From: a virus | Virus record (IMG/VR): IMGVR_UViG_3300009169_000024 | Coordinates: 1 to 62,874 of that record | Direction: 5' to 3' (one strand) | DNA: 62,874 bases | Part shown: positions 48 through 61,116 of the stretch, one piece after another | Layout of the letters: every line of letters starts with the position of its first letter | Numbering within the stretch: the first letter of the stretch is position 1 | The notes under the pieces: model-generated | Told to the model about the DNA's origin: nothing | Seen by the model: only the letters and a program-made list of their open reading frames with translations | Database searches by the model: none | Translations under genes and position numbers: made by a program

Positions 48-117
48 CCTGCACCTCCTCGACGAAGTCTCGGAGGTGCAGGTGAGAGACGGGGTGGCCA
101 GCCCCACTGCACCTCCC
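39..117 (-). promoter_or_regulatory. Three-armed leader hairpin hiding an SD and start codon
   Basis: Read as minus-strand RNA, the sequence GGAGGTGCAG (from 107-116) is followed by its complement CTGCACCTCC (from 72-81) and then by a second GGAGGTGCAG (from 49-58). The middle arm can pair with either outer copy. The 3' pairing is stronger: it extends outward through GTCTCTCA/TGAGAGAC (39-46 with 83-90, one bulge at 47) and inward by GAC/GTC around TTC. The 3' arm contains the SD and ATG of the partial gene at 47. The 5' arm starts about 20 bases after the stop of the 81-residue gene. No U-run follows, so it is not a plain terminator. Confidence 0.6.
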
Positions 118-382: not shown

Positions 383-392
383 GCTGCACCTC

Positions 393-443
393 CTGCCCCT
401 ATTCCGTAGGGGACACTACGTGTCACCCTACGGATAGGGGCAG
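393..443. repeat. 51-base imperfect inverted repeat
   Basis: The left arm begins CTGCCCCTATTCCGTAGGG and the right arm, read on the other strand, begins CTGCCCCTATCCGTAGGG. They differ by one inserted base each, and converge on GACAC-TAC-GTGTC at the centre (412-424). It lies directly upstream of the SD of the 81-residue gene, so it forms either an operator or a hairpin in that gene's 5' leader. Confidence 0.75.
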
Positions 444-497
444 AAGTGCCAAAACGACATGCCAACCGCGCGCAGATCCGCACGGGGTTGGAGAGGT

Positions 498-14147: not shown

Positions 14148-16172
14148 ATGGCAGCCGTAGAGCCAGAAGACACGCAAACGCTCGAAGTTGACATCGAGTC
14201 CATCAGCGTCGTCGAAAGGCCGCTGGAGGAGAAGCTCGATTACGAGGACGGGAAGGAACTCCACACCAAGATCCTCGACAAGCTGATTGCGCGGCGGGAC
14301 TACTCCGTCGAGCACTGCGAGGAGCGGTATGAGGAGTGGGACCGGGTCAGGAAACACCTCAAGCTATACATCGACCTGAAGGCCAAGGCCCGCCTGGGCG
14401 ACAAGACCTCCGATGAGTCAGCGCGTGAGATGCCGTTCCAGAGATCCGTCGCGATCCCGGTCTCCTACGCCAACCTGCATGTGCTGCTGACGCAGATGTC
14501 GTCGATCTTCACGGCCCGCAACCCGATGATCCAGCTGTCCGGGCGCGGACCCGAGGATGTCTTCCGGGCGAAGATGATGGAAGTGCTCCTCGCCTACGAC
14601 AACCAGCAGACCAAGGCGTTCAGCGCTCTCTACTCGATGTTCCAGGACGCCCTGGCATTCGGAACCGGCATCACCTACGACTCCTGGGAAATCGAGAGCG
14701 GAGCCAAGTTCGAGTACCAGCCACTGGCGGTGCCAGGCGTTCCTGCAGAACTGCTCACGGCCTACCTCGGCCCGCTCGCCTACACGCCCATCCGAACGAT
14801 TGGTGTGCGCCGCGAGTACAACCGCTGGAAGCCGGTTGACCCCTACAAGTTCCGGCCTGACCCGCGTGTCGCCTTCTGGAATCTGCAGGACGGCGAGTTC
14901 TGCGGCCATGCCTACGAGGTGGGCTACAACGCGCTGAAGAAGAAGGAGGCCCCGTTCGGCCCCTACTTCAACCTCAGCCACATCCCGAAGTTCGCGAAGA
15001 ACATGGACAGCCGCCACGAGAAACGCGGCACGGACGGCATGAACGAAAGCTCGTTCAACCTGATGAGCCGGGACGAGAAGGACCGTGGCTACTTCGCCGC
15101 CGAAACTATGGTGGTGGAGCTGATCCCGAAGGACTGGGGAATCTCCGACGACGACTTCCCGATGAAGTATGTCTTCACCTGGATCGACGACGAGGTCATC
15201 ATCAGGGCGCACGAGCTGCCCAACGTCCACCAGCAGTTCCCGTACTCGGTAGCTGAGAGCGACCCCGATTTCCACTCGACCTGGAGCCCTGGCATCATCG
15301 AGCTGATCGAGCCGATGCAGCGCTACATCAACTGGCTCTTCAACAGTCACATCGAGAACATCACCTCGGTCCTCAACAACCAGTGGGTCTACTCGCCGCG
15401 CTTCATCGAGCGCAATGACCTGGAGTACGGCGGGCCTGGCGAGCACATCCGGTTGAAGAACGAGGCCGTTGAGATGATGCTCTCCGGCGAGATCGCAGAT
15501 GTCCGGCAGTTCTTCTTCCAGGTGCCGATCCAGGACGTGACCGGCCCGAGCTACATGAATGCAGTGCAGTACCTCTACCAGATGGTGCAGCTGCTGTCCG
15601 GGGCAAACGACCCCATGTCTGGCATCCAGCTGCCCACCGAGCGCAGCGCGACGGAGATCCACACAATCACGGCCAAGGCGAGCGACCGGCTTGCGATCCT
15701 GGCCAAGCTCAGCGACGAGAACGCGATCCAGCCGCTCATCCAGCGCTCCATTCTCAACCGGCAGCAGTTCACCCAGATGGCGCAGTATTACCGCATCCTC
15801 GGGGAGTTCGCCCAAGAGTACGGGATGGACTCCATCTTCGTGGAAATGCAGGACTTGCAGGGCGAGTTCGACTACATCCCGATCAGTGGGATCATGCCGG
15901 AAGACCCGGCCAGGTCGGCGCAGGCGTGGTCGCAGATCATGGCATCAGCCGCCCAGAACCCGGCCCTGCAGCAGCCCGGCCCCGATGGTAGACAGCTCGA
16001 CTTCCGCAAGGTTTTCGACACCATCGCCCAGAAGATGGGGATCACAAACATCGGGCGCTACTACATGGACGTGCAGGTTGTCCCCGACGAAGAGGCCATG
16101 GCTCAGGAGCAGGCCGGAAACTTCCTTCCCGTGCAAGCTCCTGGCAATGCTATGCTTCCGGCAGGAGGATAG
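14148..16172 (+). CDS. Portal protein, 674 aa
   Basis: Forms the dodecameric ring through which DNA enters and leaves the head. Supporting features: correct position after terminase, length typical of podovirus head-tail connectors, an N-terminal acidic region, then PFQRSVAIPVSYANLHVLLT, SIFTARNPMIQLSGRGPEDV, FSALYSMFQDALAFGTGITY, TWSPGIIELIEPMQRYINWL (clip/stem region) and PMSGIQLPTERSATEIHTIT (about 487-506), followed by a helical C-terminal wing and a Gln/Ala/Pro-rich tail. Motif order matches P22/N4-like portals rather than HK97 types; this is by eye. Confidence 0.85.
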   Translation: MAAVEPEDTQTLEVDIESISVVERPLEEKLDYEDGKELHTKILDKLIARRDYSVEHCEERYEEWDRVRKHLKLYIDLKAKARLGDKTSDESAREMPFQRSVAIPVSYANLHVLLTQMSSIFTARNPMIQLSGRGPEDVFRAKMMEVLLAYDNQQTKAFSALYSMFQDALAFGTGITYDSWEIESGAKFEYQPLAVPGVPAELLTAYLGPLAYTPIRTIGVRREYNRWKPVDPYKFRPDPRVAFWNLQDGEFCGHAYEVGYNALKKKEAPFGPYFNLSHIPKFAKNMDSRHEKRGTDGMNESSFNLMSRDEKDRGYFAAETMVVELIPKDWGISDDDFPMKYVFTWIDDEVIIRAHELPNVHQQFPYSVAESDPDFHSTWSPGIIELIEPMQRYINWLFNSHIENITSVLNNQWVYSPRFIERNDLEYGGPGEHIRLKNEAVEMMLSGEIADVRQFFFQVPIQDVTGPSYMNAVQYLYQMVQLLSGANDPMSGIQLPTERSATEIHTITAKASDRLAILAKLSDENAIQPLIQRSILNRQQFTQMAQYYRILGEFAQEYGMDSIFVEMQDLQGEFDYIPISGIMPEDPARSAQAWSQIMASAAQNPALQQPGPDGRQLDFRKVFDTIAQKMGITNIGRYYMDVQVVPDEEAMAQEQAGNFLPVQAPGNAMLPAGG

Positions 16173-57463: not shown

Positions 57464-57547
57464 GCCTCACCTCCATGGGATTCAGTCTGCCTCGCAGTGG
57501 GAGAGAGAGGAGGTGCAGTGACCCTCTCCCATGCGAGGCAGAACGAA
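57464..57547 (-). promoter_or_regulatory. Long leader hairpin with anti-SD loop
   Basis: CTGCCTCGCAGTGGGAGAG (57487-57505) and CTCTCCCATGCGAGGCAG (57524-57541) pair along 18 bases with one bulge, extended by GATTC/GAATC outside. In the RNA the loop contains CACCTCC, complementary to the SD GGAGGTG of the gene at 57463, and the 5' arm CATGGGA is complementary to TCCCATG just upstream of that SD. The element begins directly after the previous stop. Confidence 0.65.
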
Positions 57548-57871: not shown

Positions 57872-58068
57872 CACTCCACCTCCAGCCCTTCGTTGAGCAG
57901 AACCTGAGCGACACCGGCAGCCATGCGATGATCGACGCAGAGCCGGTAGCGCCCCATCCACTGCCATCCCTCCGTCGCCAGCGTCTCGTCCATCACTCGC
58001 AGTGCGTCCTCGTTCTGCGCTTCGAACACGATGATCGACCCCTCGTTCTCAACCTTGATGTCACACAT
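57871..58068 (-). CDS. Hypothetical protein, 65 aa
   Basis: MCDIKVENEGSIIVFEAQNE, DALRVMDETLATEGWQWMGR, YRLCVDHRMAAGVAQVLLNE. A ferredoxin-like strand-helix-strand-helix order is likely. GGAGGAGGAG site. Unknown role. Confidence 0.68.
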   Translation of the reverse strand: MCDIKVENEGSIIVFEAQNEDALRVMDETLATEGWQWMGRYRLCVDHRMAAGVAQVLLNEGLEVE

Positions 58069-58303
58069 CCTGCTCCTCCTCCTTCATGCCTGGTCCGGGT
58101 GTCATCTTCAGGAAGGTGAGGTTGCCCTTCTTGTCCCAGTCTGCCCACACCGTGGCGACCATCACTCCCTGCCGGTAGAGAATCCATCGGTGCTTGCCCT
58201 GCATGGGGCGGTACTCACGCTGGTAGTATTGCGGCTGGCCCTTGGTCAGCGAGTCGAACAGCTTCCGCAACTGTCGCCGTACTCTCTCCGGCATGTTCAG
58301 CAT
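58061..58303 (-). CDS. Hypothetical basic protein, 80 aa
   Basis: MPERVRRQLRKLFDSLTKGQ, YYQREYRPMQGKHRWILYRQ, GVMVATVWADWDKKGNLTFL. Basic first half followed by a small beta sheet. The SD (GGGGAGAGG) is the end of the 3' arm of the three-armed leader at 58304-58378, so expression should depend on that structure. In-frame GTG upstream lies in the hairpin and is rejected. Confidence 0.7.
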   Translation of the reverse strand: MLNMPERVRRQLRKLFDSLTKGQPQYYQREYRPMQGKHRWILYRQGVMVATVWADWDKKGNLTFLKMTPGPGMKEEEQDV

Positions 58304-58378
58304 GGCCTCTCCCCTCTTTTCTTTCGTCACAAAGTTACGAAAGAAAAGAGGGGAGGAGTCGCCTCCTCCCCTCGTCGA
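58304..58378 (-). promoter_or_regulatory. Three-armed leader element, copy at 58.3 kb
   Basis: In the RNA, GAGGGGAGGA (58348-58357 is its partner; 5' copy from 58364-58373) is followed by loop GGCGAC, then a middle arm TCCTCCCCTCTTTTCTTTCGT, then loop AACTTTGTG, then a 3' arm complementary to the middle arm over 19 perfect bases (58309-58327 with 58337-58355). The 3' arm ends in the SD of the gene at 58303. The 5' arm starts five bases after the previous stop. Middle arm can pair with either side. Confidence 0.75.
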
Positions 58379-58630
58379 TCATCCCCAGTTCTGCAGCCTG
58401 CGGATGAAGCAGTCGCTGCCATGATCGACGTGCCGGATGTTGTACTCGATGCCTCGCTCCTTCAGCACGTCGATGAACAGAGCGGCATCGCAGTCCTCTT
58501 CGAGGAAGACGGCGTTGCCATCCACGTAGCTGAAGCCCGATGGCTTGACGCCGTAGGTCTCCATCATGCGCCGGTCCACTTGGAGCCAGCCATGGCCGGG
58601 GTCGGAATGGAAGGTGAGGGTGAGCATCAT
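58379..58630 (-). CDS. Widespread phage protein, 83 aa
   Basis: DPGHGWLQVDRRMMETYGVK, GFSYVDGNAVFLEEDCDAAL, FIDVLKERGIEYNIRHVDHG. The pattern H(G)HGWL.V......lgi....s.YSY......LEEDCD...F...l is one I recognise from many unrelated phages; it lacks an assigned function. Its stop codon lies five bases upstream of the three-armed leader, so ribosomes finishing here could shift that structure. Confidence 0.78.
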   Translation of the reverse strand: MMLTLTFHSDPGHGWLQVDRRMMETYGVKPSGFSYVDGNAVFLEEDCDAALFIDVLKERGIEYNIRHVDHGSDCFIRRLQNWG

Positions 58631-59871: not shown

Positions 59872-60281
59872 CACTCGCCTCCCATGTCTGGGATGTGGCC
59901 GAACACTGCGTTGTAGACGCCCGGCTCAATCGCTGCCTTCCTGTACCTGAGCGTCCTCGCCAGCATGTCCTCGTTGGTGATGACCTTGCCGACAGCCTCC
60001 TCCTTCAGCACCACCCACCTGCCAGTGGGATAGGCACCGTTCGCCATGGGAGGCAGGCCAGTGTGGTTCGGGGTGTCCGTCGCCTCGAAGAACTGGATGC
60101 CCTGCGCCATCTGCTCTGCGCACTTGGCGCATGGCTCGTAGCTGACGCATGCCCGGCGTGGTGCCTCGGCGTCGTCCTTCAGCCTGCCCAGCAGCAGCAC
60201 CGTGCCATCGTCCTCGCCGCACCAGAAGCACACTCCGAGCGATGGGTTCACGCCGTGCTTTTGTGACAGTCGGATGCTCAT
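59871..60281 (-). CDS. Conserved phage zinc-ribbon protein, 136 aa
   Basis: MSIRLSQKHGVNPSLGVCFW, CGEDDGTVLLLGRLKDD, YEPCAKCAEQMAQGIQFFE has two cysteine pairs and is a strikingly conserved opening in many phages (SIRLS.KHGvNPs...CfwCGe..gi.LlG). The remainder, about 70 residues, is beta-rich (TGRWVVLKEEAVGKVI). Uncharacterised. GGAGG site. Confidence 0.8.
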   Translation of the reverse strand: MSIRLSQKHGVNPSLGVCFWCGEDDGTVLLLGRLKDDAEAPRRACVSYEPCAKCAEQMAQGIQFFEATDTPNHTGLPPMANGAYPTGRWVVLKEEAVGKVITNEDMLARTLRYRKAAIEPGVYNAVFGHIPDMGGE

Positions 60282-60502
60282 GGCTTGCCTCCTTCTTTCG
60301 GCAGCGTCGGGATGCTGAGATGCCCGCAGTCGTTGCCCTCCTGGTCACTGTCCACCCACACCACCACGCCACCACCCTTCATGCCTGGCTTGGTGAGCAC
60401 CAGCCCGAAGGACTCACCGCTCGGCGTGAGTACCGAATCCGCAATGGTGTAGCCGATCAGCTTCTTCGCCTGCTCCGCTTCCCACTCGGCGTTGTGGCTC
60501 AT
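60278..60502 (-). CDS. Hypothetical protein, 74 aa
   Basis: AEWEAEQAKKLIGYTIADSV, LTPSGESFGLVLTKPGMKGG, VVVWVDSDQEGNDCGHLSI. It follows the small beta fold 'i.g..I......s.dge.fGl.l..p.g....v.v..D.EGNgpG.l' seen in phage proteins of unknown role. Ends GGKP, its codons giving the next SD. Confidence 0.72.
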   Translation of the reverse strand: MSHNAEWEAEQAKKLIGYTIADSVLTPSGESFGLVLTKPGMKGGGVVVWVDSDQEGNDCGHLSIPTLPKEGGKP

Positions 60503-60505
60503 GGC

Positions 60506-60796
60506 TCACCTCCCATCCAGCAGGCCGAGTTGCTCAGCAGCGTAGGCGATACCACCTTCGATGAAGGGAGCGGCGAGACGGATGAATTCGTTGAAGGTTC
60601 CGTCCTCAATCTCCGAGTGGAGGAATGCCTCCTCCAACCTTGACGCTGCCAGCCTGCCGTTCTCGTGGCTACGCAGAGCGACGGCGACAATGCAGTAGAT
60701 GACACCCATCATCGGCTCGTCTCCATCCTCACGGCAGTAGCTGTCGATGTTGCGCTTGTCGAGTTCGCCTCGGAGCATGTGGATGAAGTCGCTCAT
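60506..60796 (-). CDS. Hypothetical helical protein, 96 aa
   Basis: MSDFIHMLRGELDKRNIDSY, MMGVIYCIVAVALRSHENGR, LEEAFLHSEIEDGTFNEFIR, APFIEGGIAYAAEQLGLL. A mostly helical soluble protein with a hydrophobic centre. AAGGAGGGG site. Unknown. Confidence 0.68.
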   Translation of the reverse strand: MSDFIHMLRGELDKRNIDSYCREDGDEPMMGVIYCIVAVALRSHENGRLAASRLEEAFLHSEIEDGTFNEFIRLAAPFIEGGIAYAAEQLGLLDGR

Positions 60797-61032
60797 GTCC
60801 CCTCCTTCACGTCTGCTCTCCAGCCATCCGGCGCTTTGATCTTCTCGATCTCAGCGAACAGCGGGAACAGGCTGTCCCTCAAGTAGCGCATGTCTGAGAT
60901 GTTGCTCTCCTCCCTGTGCGGTGGCTGAACCTCCATCATCGTGTCGATGGCAACGCACAGCGCCTGCCCCATGATGTACTGACCCCTCATCGAGTTGAGA
61001 AACCGGATCGCCGCTTCCCGAGTCTCGTCCAT
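60793..61032 (-). CDS. Conserved phage helical protein, 79 aa
   Basis: EAAIRFLNSMRGQYIMGQAL, CVAIDTMMEVQPPHREESNI, SDMRYLRDSLFPLFAEIEKI. The pattern 'RGqyIigQAL..ai......p...E.SNi.DM..L' recurs in phages, function unknown. Start ATG has AAGGAGG, the end of the leader hairpin. An in-frame ATG at 61113 with its own SD (AAGGAG) would add 27 residues encoded by the hairpin itself; judged regulatory rather than protein-coding. Confidence 0.72.
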   Translation of the reverse strand: MDETREAAIRFLNSMRGQYIMGQALCVAIDTMMEVQPPHREESNISDMRYLRDSLFPLFAEIEKIKAPDGWRADVKEGT

Positions 61033-61116
61033 GCTGCGCCTCCTTTCCCTTCCCTTATCGCTCTCACAAAGTGTGAGCGATAAGGGAAGGGAAGGCCGTC
61101 GCCTTCCCTCCATGCC
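61033..61116 (-). promoter_or_regulatory. Three-armed leader element, copy at 61.05 kb
   Basis: RNA order: GGGAAGGC (61101-61108), loop GACG, complement GCCTTCCC continuing as a 19-base middle arm TTCCCTTCCCTTATCGCTC, loop ACACTTTGTGA, and a perfect 19-base 3' arm (61045-61063 with 61075-61093), then AAAGGAGG of the gene at 61032. Loops GGCGAC and ACTTTGTG match those of the 58.3-kb copy while the stems are entirely different in sequence. Starts eight bases after the upstream stop. Confidence 0.75.

Follow-up and report, generated by a model that had tools for sequence, protein, structure and literature searches.

A repeated three-armed intercistronic element that may gate ribosome binding sites in a phage operon

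The window analyzed here is a whole stretch of 62,874 nucleotides of viral DNA (IMG/VR record IMGVR_UViG_3300009169_000024). Contig G001, which is 99.9% identical to the window and represents essentially the same phage, extends past the window end; by comparison with this near-identical contig, the window lacks approximately 1.7 kb that would join its last position to position 1, and the full genome is probably ~65 kb long. Between 54.4 and 62.6 kb the window contains 27 leftward genes, among which there are only three gaps longer than 10 nt. All three gaps are filled by long hairpins, while the remaining genes of the operon overlap or abut. For five of the 27 genes the listed first codon is provisional. 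One of these is the gene that follows the element described next; the other four have ATG candidates near the preceding stop codon, as judged by eye.

The element at 58304–58378 (minus strand), here referred to as E2, occupies the gap between the TGA stop codon (58379–58381) of the gene at 58379–58630 and the ATG (58301–58303) of a downstream 80-aa gene (58061–58303) with no family match. The start of the downstream gene was listed provisionally, and the ATG at 58303 makes the gap 75 nt long instead of the printed 78. The gap is almost entirely structured. In the leftward mRNA, a 5-nt spacer read from the sequence as TCGAC separates the stop codon from arm A, GAGGGGAGGAG (58363–58373), which is followed by a GCGA tetraloop (58359–58362) that closes the A:A' hairpin by both sequence and folding. 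Arm A' as a whole is CTCCTCCCCTCTTTTCTTTCGT (58358–58337). It consists of a basal part, CTCCTCCCCTC (58348–58358), for which A and the base of A'' are alternative partners and which is identical in the relative described below, and of an upper 5' stem, TTTTCTTTCGT (58337–58347), which is paired in both states and rewritten in the relative. The tip, AACTTTGTG (58328–58336), contains a TTT loop (58333–58331) with one adjoining pairing defect, and leads into arm A'', ACGAAAGAAAAGAGGGGAG (58309–58327). The foot of A'', GAGGGGAG, holds the Shine–Dalgarno sequence (SD; GGAG, or GGGGAG in its longer form) 5 nt from the ATG, the intervening letters being read as AGGCC.

The sequence-only reading of this stretch had described three arms of which A' could pair with only one partner at a time. 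Direct reading bears this out, with the contest limited to the basal pairs. The 19 perfect base pairs it reported between A' and A'' are present, and beyond them an A.G mismatch precedes the 2 bp that close the TTT loop. The A:A' hairpin also stands, with a trivial difference in size: it has 11 bp and a 4-nt GCGA loop, compared to the 10 bp implied by the GGCGAC loop noted earlier. Folded alone, this hairpin has a predicted energy of −23.6 kcal/mol, and the whole element folds at −46.1 kcal/mol (z = −4.0). Among short-loop hairpins, the longest two of the window reach scores of 20 and 19, compared to a best score of 12 in 30 dinucleotide shuffles of the whole window, and the E2 hairpin is far beyond chance expectation. 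When random genomic 28-mers were put before A', a hairpin as strong as A:A' arose in 0.07–0.4% of them.

The same layout, consisting of A, A', a variable stem, a CACTTTGTG tip, A'', SD, and ATG, was found at three loci (E1, E2, and E5) in two phage lineages, amounting to six distinct sequences. The suffix _A designates the lineage of the window and _B the second lineage (e.g., E5_A and E5_B). E1 is the other long hairpin of the window and has the same order of parts as E2; it lies at 61039–61111 on the minus strand, with A at 61111–61101, the contested part of A' at 61096–61089, the CACTTTGTG tip at 61073–61065, the SD AGGAGG at 61044–61039, and the ATG at 61032. E5 lies past the window end, at 14964–15010 of G001. 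The second lineage is represented by IMGVR_UViG_3300009091_000015 and IMGVR_UViG_3300009167_000035, which are roughly 72–97% identical to the window in the aligned segments and contain all three copies at corresponding places.

The tip reads CACTTTGTG in five of the six copies and AACTTTGTG in E2 of the window, and in all six the mRNA carries the TTT strand of the tip. No copy departs from the TTT loop or from the two pairs that close it. A single defect occurs in every copy 2–4 bp from the loop, as a mismatch in the window lineage and as a 5' bulge in the second lineage. Arm A is likewise present in all six copies and can form a hairpin of 8–11 bp with the foot of A', closed by differing loops (GCGA, GCCGA, GACG, CGCGA, UUCG) and including G.U pairs at E1_B and E5_B. 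The ribosome binding site strings are ordinary and differ among copies, and the SD is located inside the stem at E2, whereas at E1 and E5 it lies half within the base of the stem or immediately beyond it. Hiding of the SD by the second A-like arm, as claimed earlier, is predicted to be complete at E2 only. The distance from the upstream stop codon to A, noted earlier as five bases at E2, is 5 nt at both E1 and E2 in both lineages, 11 nt at E5_B, and 22 nt at E5_A.

E1 is kept in both lineages but precedes a different gene in each; the module is thus not bound to a particular downstream gene. Two window genes (60793–61032 and 60506–60796) are missing from the second lineage (around 60503–61032 of the window; around 57913 of contig G003), where E1 leads directly into a homologue of the gene at 60278–60502, the breakpoint being at the SD of the element. 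At E5, the window lineage alone has an 11-codon open reading frame with a strong SD (MWGSTWGIRLA; 14889–14924 of G001, locus L016) between the upstream gene and the element.

Other hairpins in the window adjoin start codons. The third intercistronic gap of the operon spans 84 nt and is taken up by a different kind of long hairpin (57464–57547, minus strand; −54 kcal/mol, z = −4.0), which lacks the CACTTTGTG tip and whose loop, CACCTCC, matches the complement of the hairpin's own SD, GGAGGTG; its counterpart in the second lineage is identical save one loop base. E3 (390–446, minus strand) is a related SD-adjacent hairpin before the ATG at 382, with a different tip in place of CACTTTGTG and with both stem arms rewritten between lineages. 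E4 (49–117, minus strand) is a possible three-armed element, also with a different tip, in which A (GGGAGGTGCAG) is at 117–107, A' at 81–72, A'' at 58–49, and the ATG at 47. An SD-like GGAGG occurs in both A and A'' of E4, and a GTG after A (TTG in the relative) is in frame with the ATG after A'', which suggests two alternative starts. Upstream of the first leftward gene, at 490–545 on the minus strand, there are repeated CACGTTACGA..GGTAAC motifs that are possibly operator sites.

Comparison of the two lineages shows that the stems change on both arms together. At E2, the coding flanks are 92–94% identical and the central part of the stem differs on both sides, reading TTTTCTTTCGTAAC and GTGACGAAAGAAAA in one lineage and TCCTCTGCCCCTCAC and GTGAGGGCAGAGGA in the other. 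Summed over the three loci, there are 12 two-sided changes, 6 paired indels, and no one-sided change between the lineages, and none of 138 stem pairs is a G.U pair. In a hand-made alignment of all six sequences, in which Ns stand in for the tip defect (tips with a bulge and tips with a mismatch are out of register with each other), 99.1% of cells pair, and two-sided changes occur in 15 of the 19 stem pairs with none one-sided. The covariation score of this alignment is 0.835 compared to 0.346 for shuffles, with none of 500 shuffles scoring as high, and sliding the partner by one column reduces pairing to 49%. The between-lineage counts are the stricter evidence, because the alignment is hand-set with placeholders and mixes copies from different loci. 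The sequence-only reading had named in advance a lack of complementary arm changes in related phages as the observation that would speak against it; complementary changes are what the related phages have. The contested base of the stem evolves more slowly than the remainder, with changes in 1 of 21 contested basal pairs versus 15 of 37 uncontested pairs (p = 0.005 by Fisher's exact test), the split between the two classes being assigned by hand from folding and pair counts.

Folding of both alternatives, which had been proposed as a check, yielded two nearly isoenergetic states. A and the base of A'' are mutually exclusive partners for the base of A', while the upper A':A'' stem persists in both states, such that the contest in the predicted structures is limited to 6–8 basal pairs. 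The predicted difference between the states is about 0–3 kcal/mol, which is within model error, and the near-balance arises partly because A and A'' are similar in sequence. Occlusion of the SD is full at E2, partial at E1, and weak or unclear at E5. With A masked, the predicted accessibility of the E2 SD is 0.00 in both lineages, and it rises to 0.51 and 0.34 when A:A' is forced; the corresponding values at E1 are 0.51/0.48 with A masked and 0.97/1.00 with A:A' forced. At E5_A the accessibility is 0.39 with A masked and 0.59 with A:A' forced. At E5_B it is 0.50 with A masked and 0.02 with A:A' forced, where pairing A with A' fails to free the SD because the repetitive stem slips register. In these models, A would keep the SD from being sequestered at E1 and E2 and, less clearly, at E5.

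These observations lead us to conclude that the three-armed element is probably a real control element, and we infer that it acts in RNA and controls translation. Our tentative preference, which we rate near an even chance but below it, is for a bistable structure in the intercistronic mRNA, one that would control access to the downstream gene's ribosome binding site. By three-strand branch migration, A would contend with the base of A'' for pairing to the base of A', with the upper stem and its conserved CACUUUGUG tip remaining folded throughout. Pairing of A' with A would leave the SD strand free, and pairing of A' with A'' would hide the SD (E2) or press it against the foot of a stable stem (E1 and E5). 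Some factor, which could be a tip-binding protein, RNase III, or ribosome traffic, would shift the balance; a tip-binding factor would not do so by itself, because the tip is paired in both states. This notion is consistent with the retention of the whole layout just upstream of the ATG in six of six copies, and with the SD of E1 and E2 being, in both lineages, more open when A:A' is formed than when A is masked. It is weakened by the fact that only two lineages were found and that two-sided changes without G.U pairs are also compatible with template switching in DNA. A wider proposal, which we regard as doubtful, is that the copies form a phage regulon of modular ribosome binding site switches, in which several genes share the same three-strand junction, the constant tip is read by one phage or host factor, and the stems drift by coordinated changes of both arms.

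It is also conceivable, if somewhat unlikely, that the element is an intercistronic RNase III processing or mRNA-stability site. RNase III would cut the A':A'' duplex, after which the A:A' hairpin would form at the 3' end of the upstream fragment and protect it, and the SD would be free at the start of the downstream fragment. This scenario would account for the match between A and the basal part of A', for the location between genes of a polycistronic operon, and for stems of 21–26 bp (about two turns of double-stranded RNA) whose sequence is free to vary. RNase III has been reported to relieve the inhibitory structure of lambda cIII mRNA and to act on intergenic mRNA regions (PMC2777011). 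Removal of the 5' arm in silico opens the E2 SD from ~0.1 to 0.84–0.97; however, it hardly alters the SD at E1_A and E1_B, and the conserved CACTTTGTG tip is left unexplained.

The pattern of stem changes could alternatively be mutational in origin, with the arms of a quasipalindrome of little or no function being rewritten together by template switching during replication, a process reported to create and maintain such stems (PMC8794818). All 18 between-lineage changes are two-sided or paired indels, G.U pairs are absent from the stems, and at E2 the arms are rewritten inside well-conserved flanks, as this explanation would have it. It does not explain why the same 9-nt tip appears at three loci, why A is present in every copy, why the place before SD and ATG is constant, or why the contested base changes more slowly. 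We consider it quite unlikely as a full account; should the structure be functional, template switching may well still be how its mutations arise.

According to the sequence-only reading, a ribosome terminating on the upstream gene could cover A and change which hairpin forms. The 5-nt spacing at E1 and E2 in both lineages fits this mechanism, as does the fully hidden SD of E2 when A is masked. The trigger fails as a general rule, since at the 11- and 22-nt spacings of E5 a terminating ribosome would not reach A. In addition, covering A would favor A':A'' and hide the SD, so that upstream translation would be predicted to repress the next gene, which is the opposite of ordinary coupling. A ribosome trigger is possible for E1 and E2, and we deem a ribosome-linked switch distinctly unlikely as the explanation of the element.

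A DNA-level site, such as an operator, a promoter, or a recombination site with dyad symmetry around CACTTTGTG, appears very unlikely. The persistence of E1 before differing genes would suit such a site, and Cluster O mycobacteriophages contain repeated dyads with TTT spacers, of unknown function there (PMC4351075); but neither a 20-bp covarying stem nor a third arm is required of an operator, shuffles contain at least as many sigma-70-like matches as this region does, and the element always lies directly before an SD in one orientation. An intrinsic terminator or attenuator formed by A:A' and the following TTTTCTTTC is hardly credible, and was rejected as a general function: the site in the window scored as terminator-like, but a clear U-tract exists only in E2 of the window lineage and is not conserved (the relative has TCCTCTGCC in its place, and E1 and E5_B lack it), and a nearby terminator-like hairpin of the same phage (14391–14424 of G001) has T6. 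An RNA thermometer was also rejected, since stems of −32 to −45 kcal/mol were judged too stable to open at growth temperature.

The element appears, from the sequences searched, to be confined to a small group of phages. Scanning viral contigs for the DNA pattern of tip followed by SD returned 44 stretches, and the three-arm form was present only in the three related contigs already found. Relatives recognized by capsid, portal, or helicase (the G004 contig, CRP-810, Kuura, Mel-JY34, and L068–L070) had no start-associated hairpin with a CACTTTGTG tip in the stretches examined, and the element was absent from the examined stretches of phage relatives with capsid identity ≤61%. The match of L081 is limited to a 56-aa stretch and includes no such element, and the bacterial genomes searched contained no relatives. 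None of the protein families of the neighboring genes was informative. Rfam models gave no match at the gathering score in the window, the sub-threshold matches being mostly to miRNA hairpin models.

If the favored reading of a bistable gate is correct, the element would provide compact, reusable control of single genes inside a phage operon whose neighbors otherwise overlap, and would suggest a concrete, testable function for the start-associated repeats of several phage groups. Stem arms that change only together are also a clear case bearing on the evolution of RNA hairpins.

Several known systems share parts of this design. In erm-type translational attenuators, the position of an upstream ribosome selects between an SD-hiding and an SD-freeing pairing; in contrast to these, the present element has three arms, a variable distance to the upstream stop codon, and no evident stalling leader peptide. 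The intercistronic RNase III sites of T7 are hairpins between genes of phage operons that adjoin the next ribosome binding site. They resemble our elements in lying between genes by the following ribosome binding site and differ in having neither a three-arm contest nor a constant tip. The lambda cIII mRNA similarly has two conformations, one of which inhibits translation initiation (for the inhibitory structure, PMC2777011); it is a single 5' leader, whereas here the module is repeated, lies between genes, and has three strands contending at the foot of the stem. Closest among described features are the start-associated and extended start-associated sequences (SAS/ESAS) of Cluster K mycobacteriophages, where arm changes gave the authors little support for mRNA hairpins (PMC3203893); comparable motifs have been described in Microbacterium phages of clusters EF and EG (PMC7302621). 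Like SAS/ESAS, which accompany a subset of small non-structural genes, our elements are repeated and include inverted repeats just upstream of the ribosome binding site and start codon. The conserved 13-bp sequence of the GGGATAGGAGCCC type found at the ribosome binding sites of SAS/ESAS is lacking here, and in place of conserved, non-covarying arms most stem pairs (15/19) covary. The arms of SAS/ESAS are conserved between copies, whereas here the arms vary, their pairing is kept, the tip is constant, and a third arm competes for the base of the stem.
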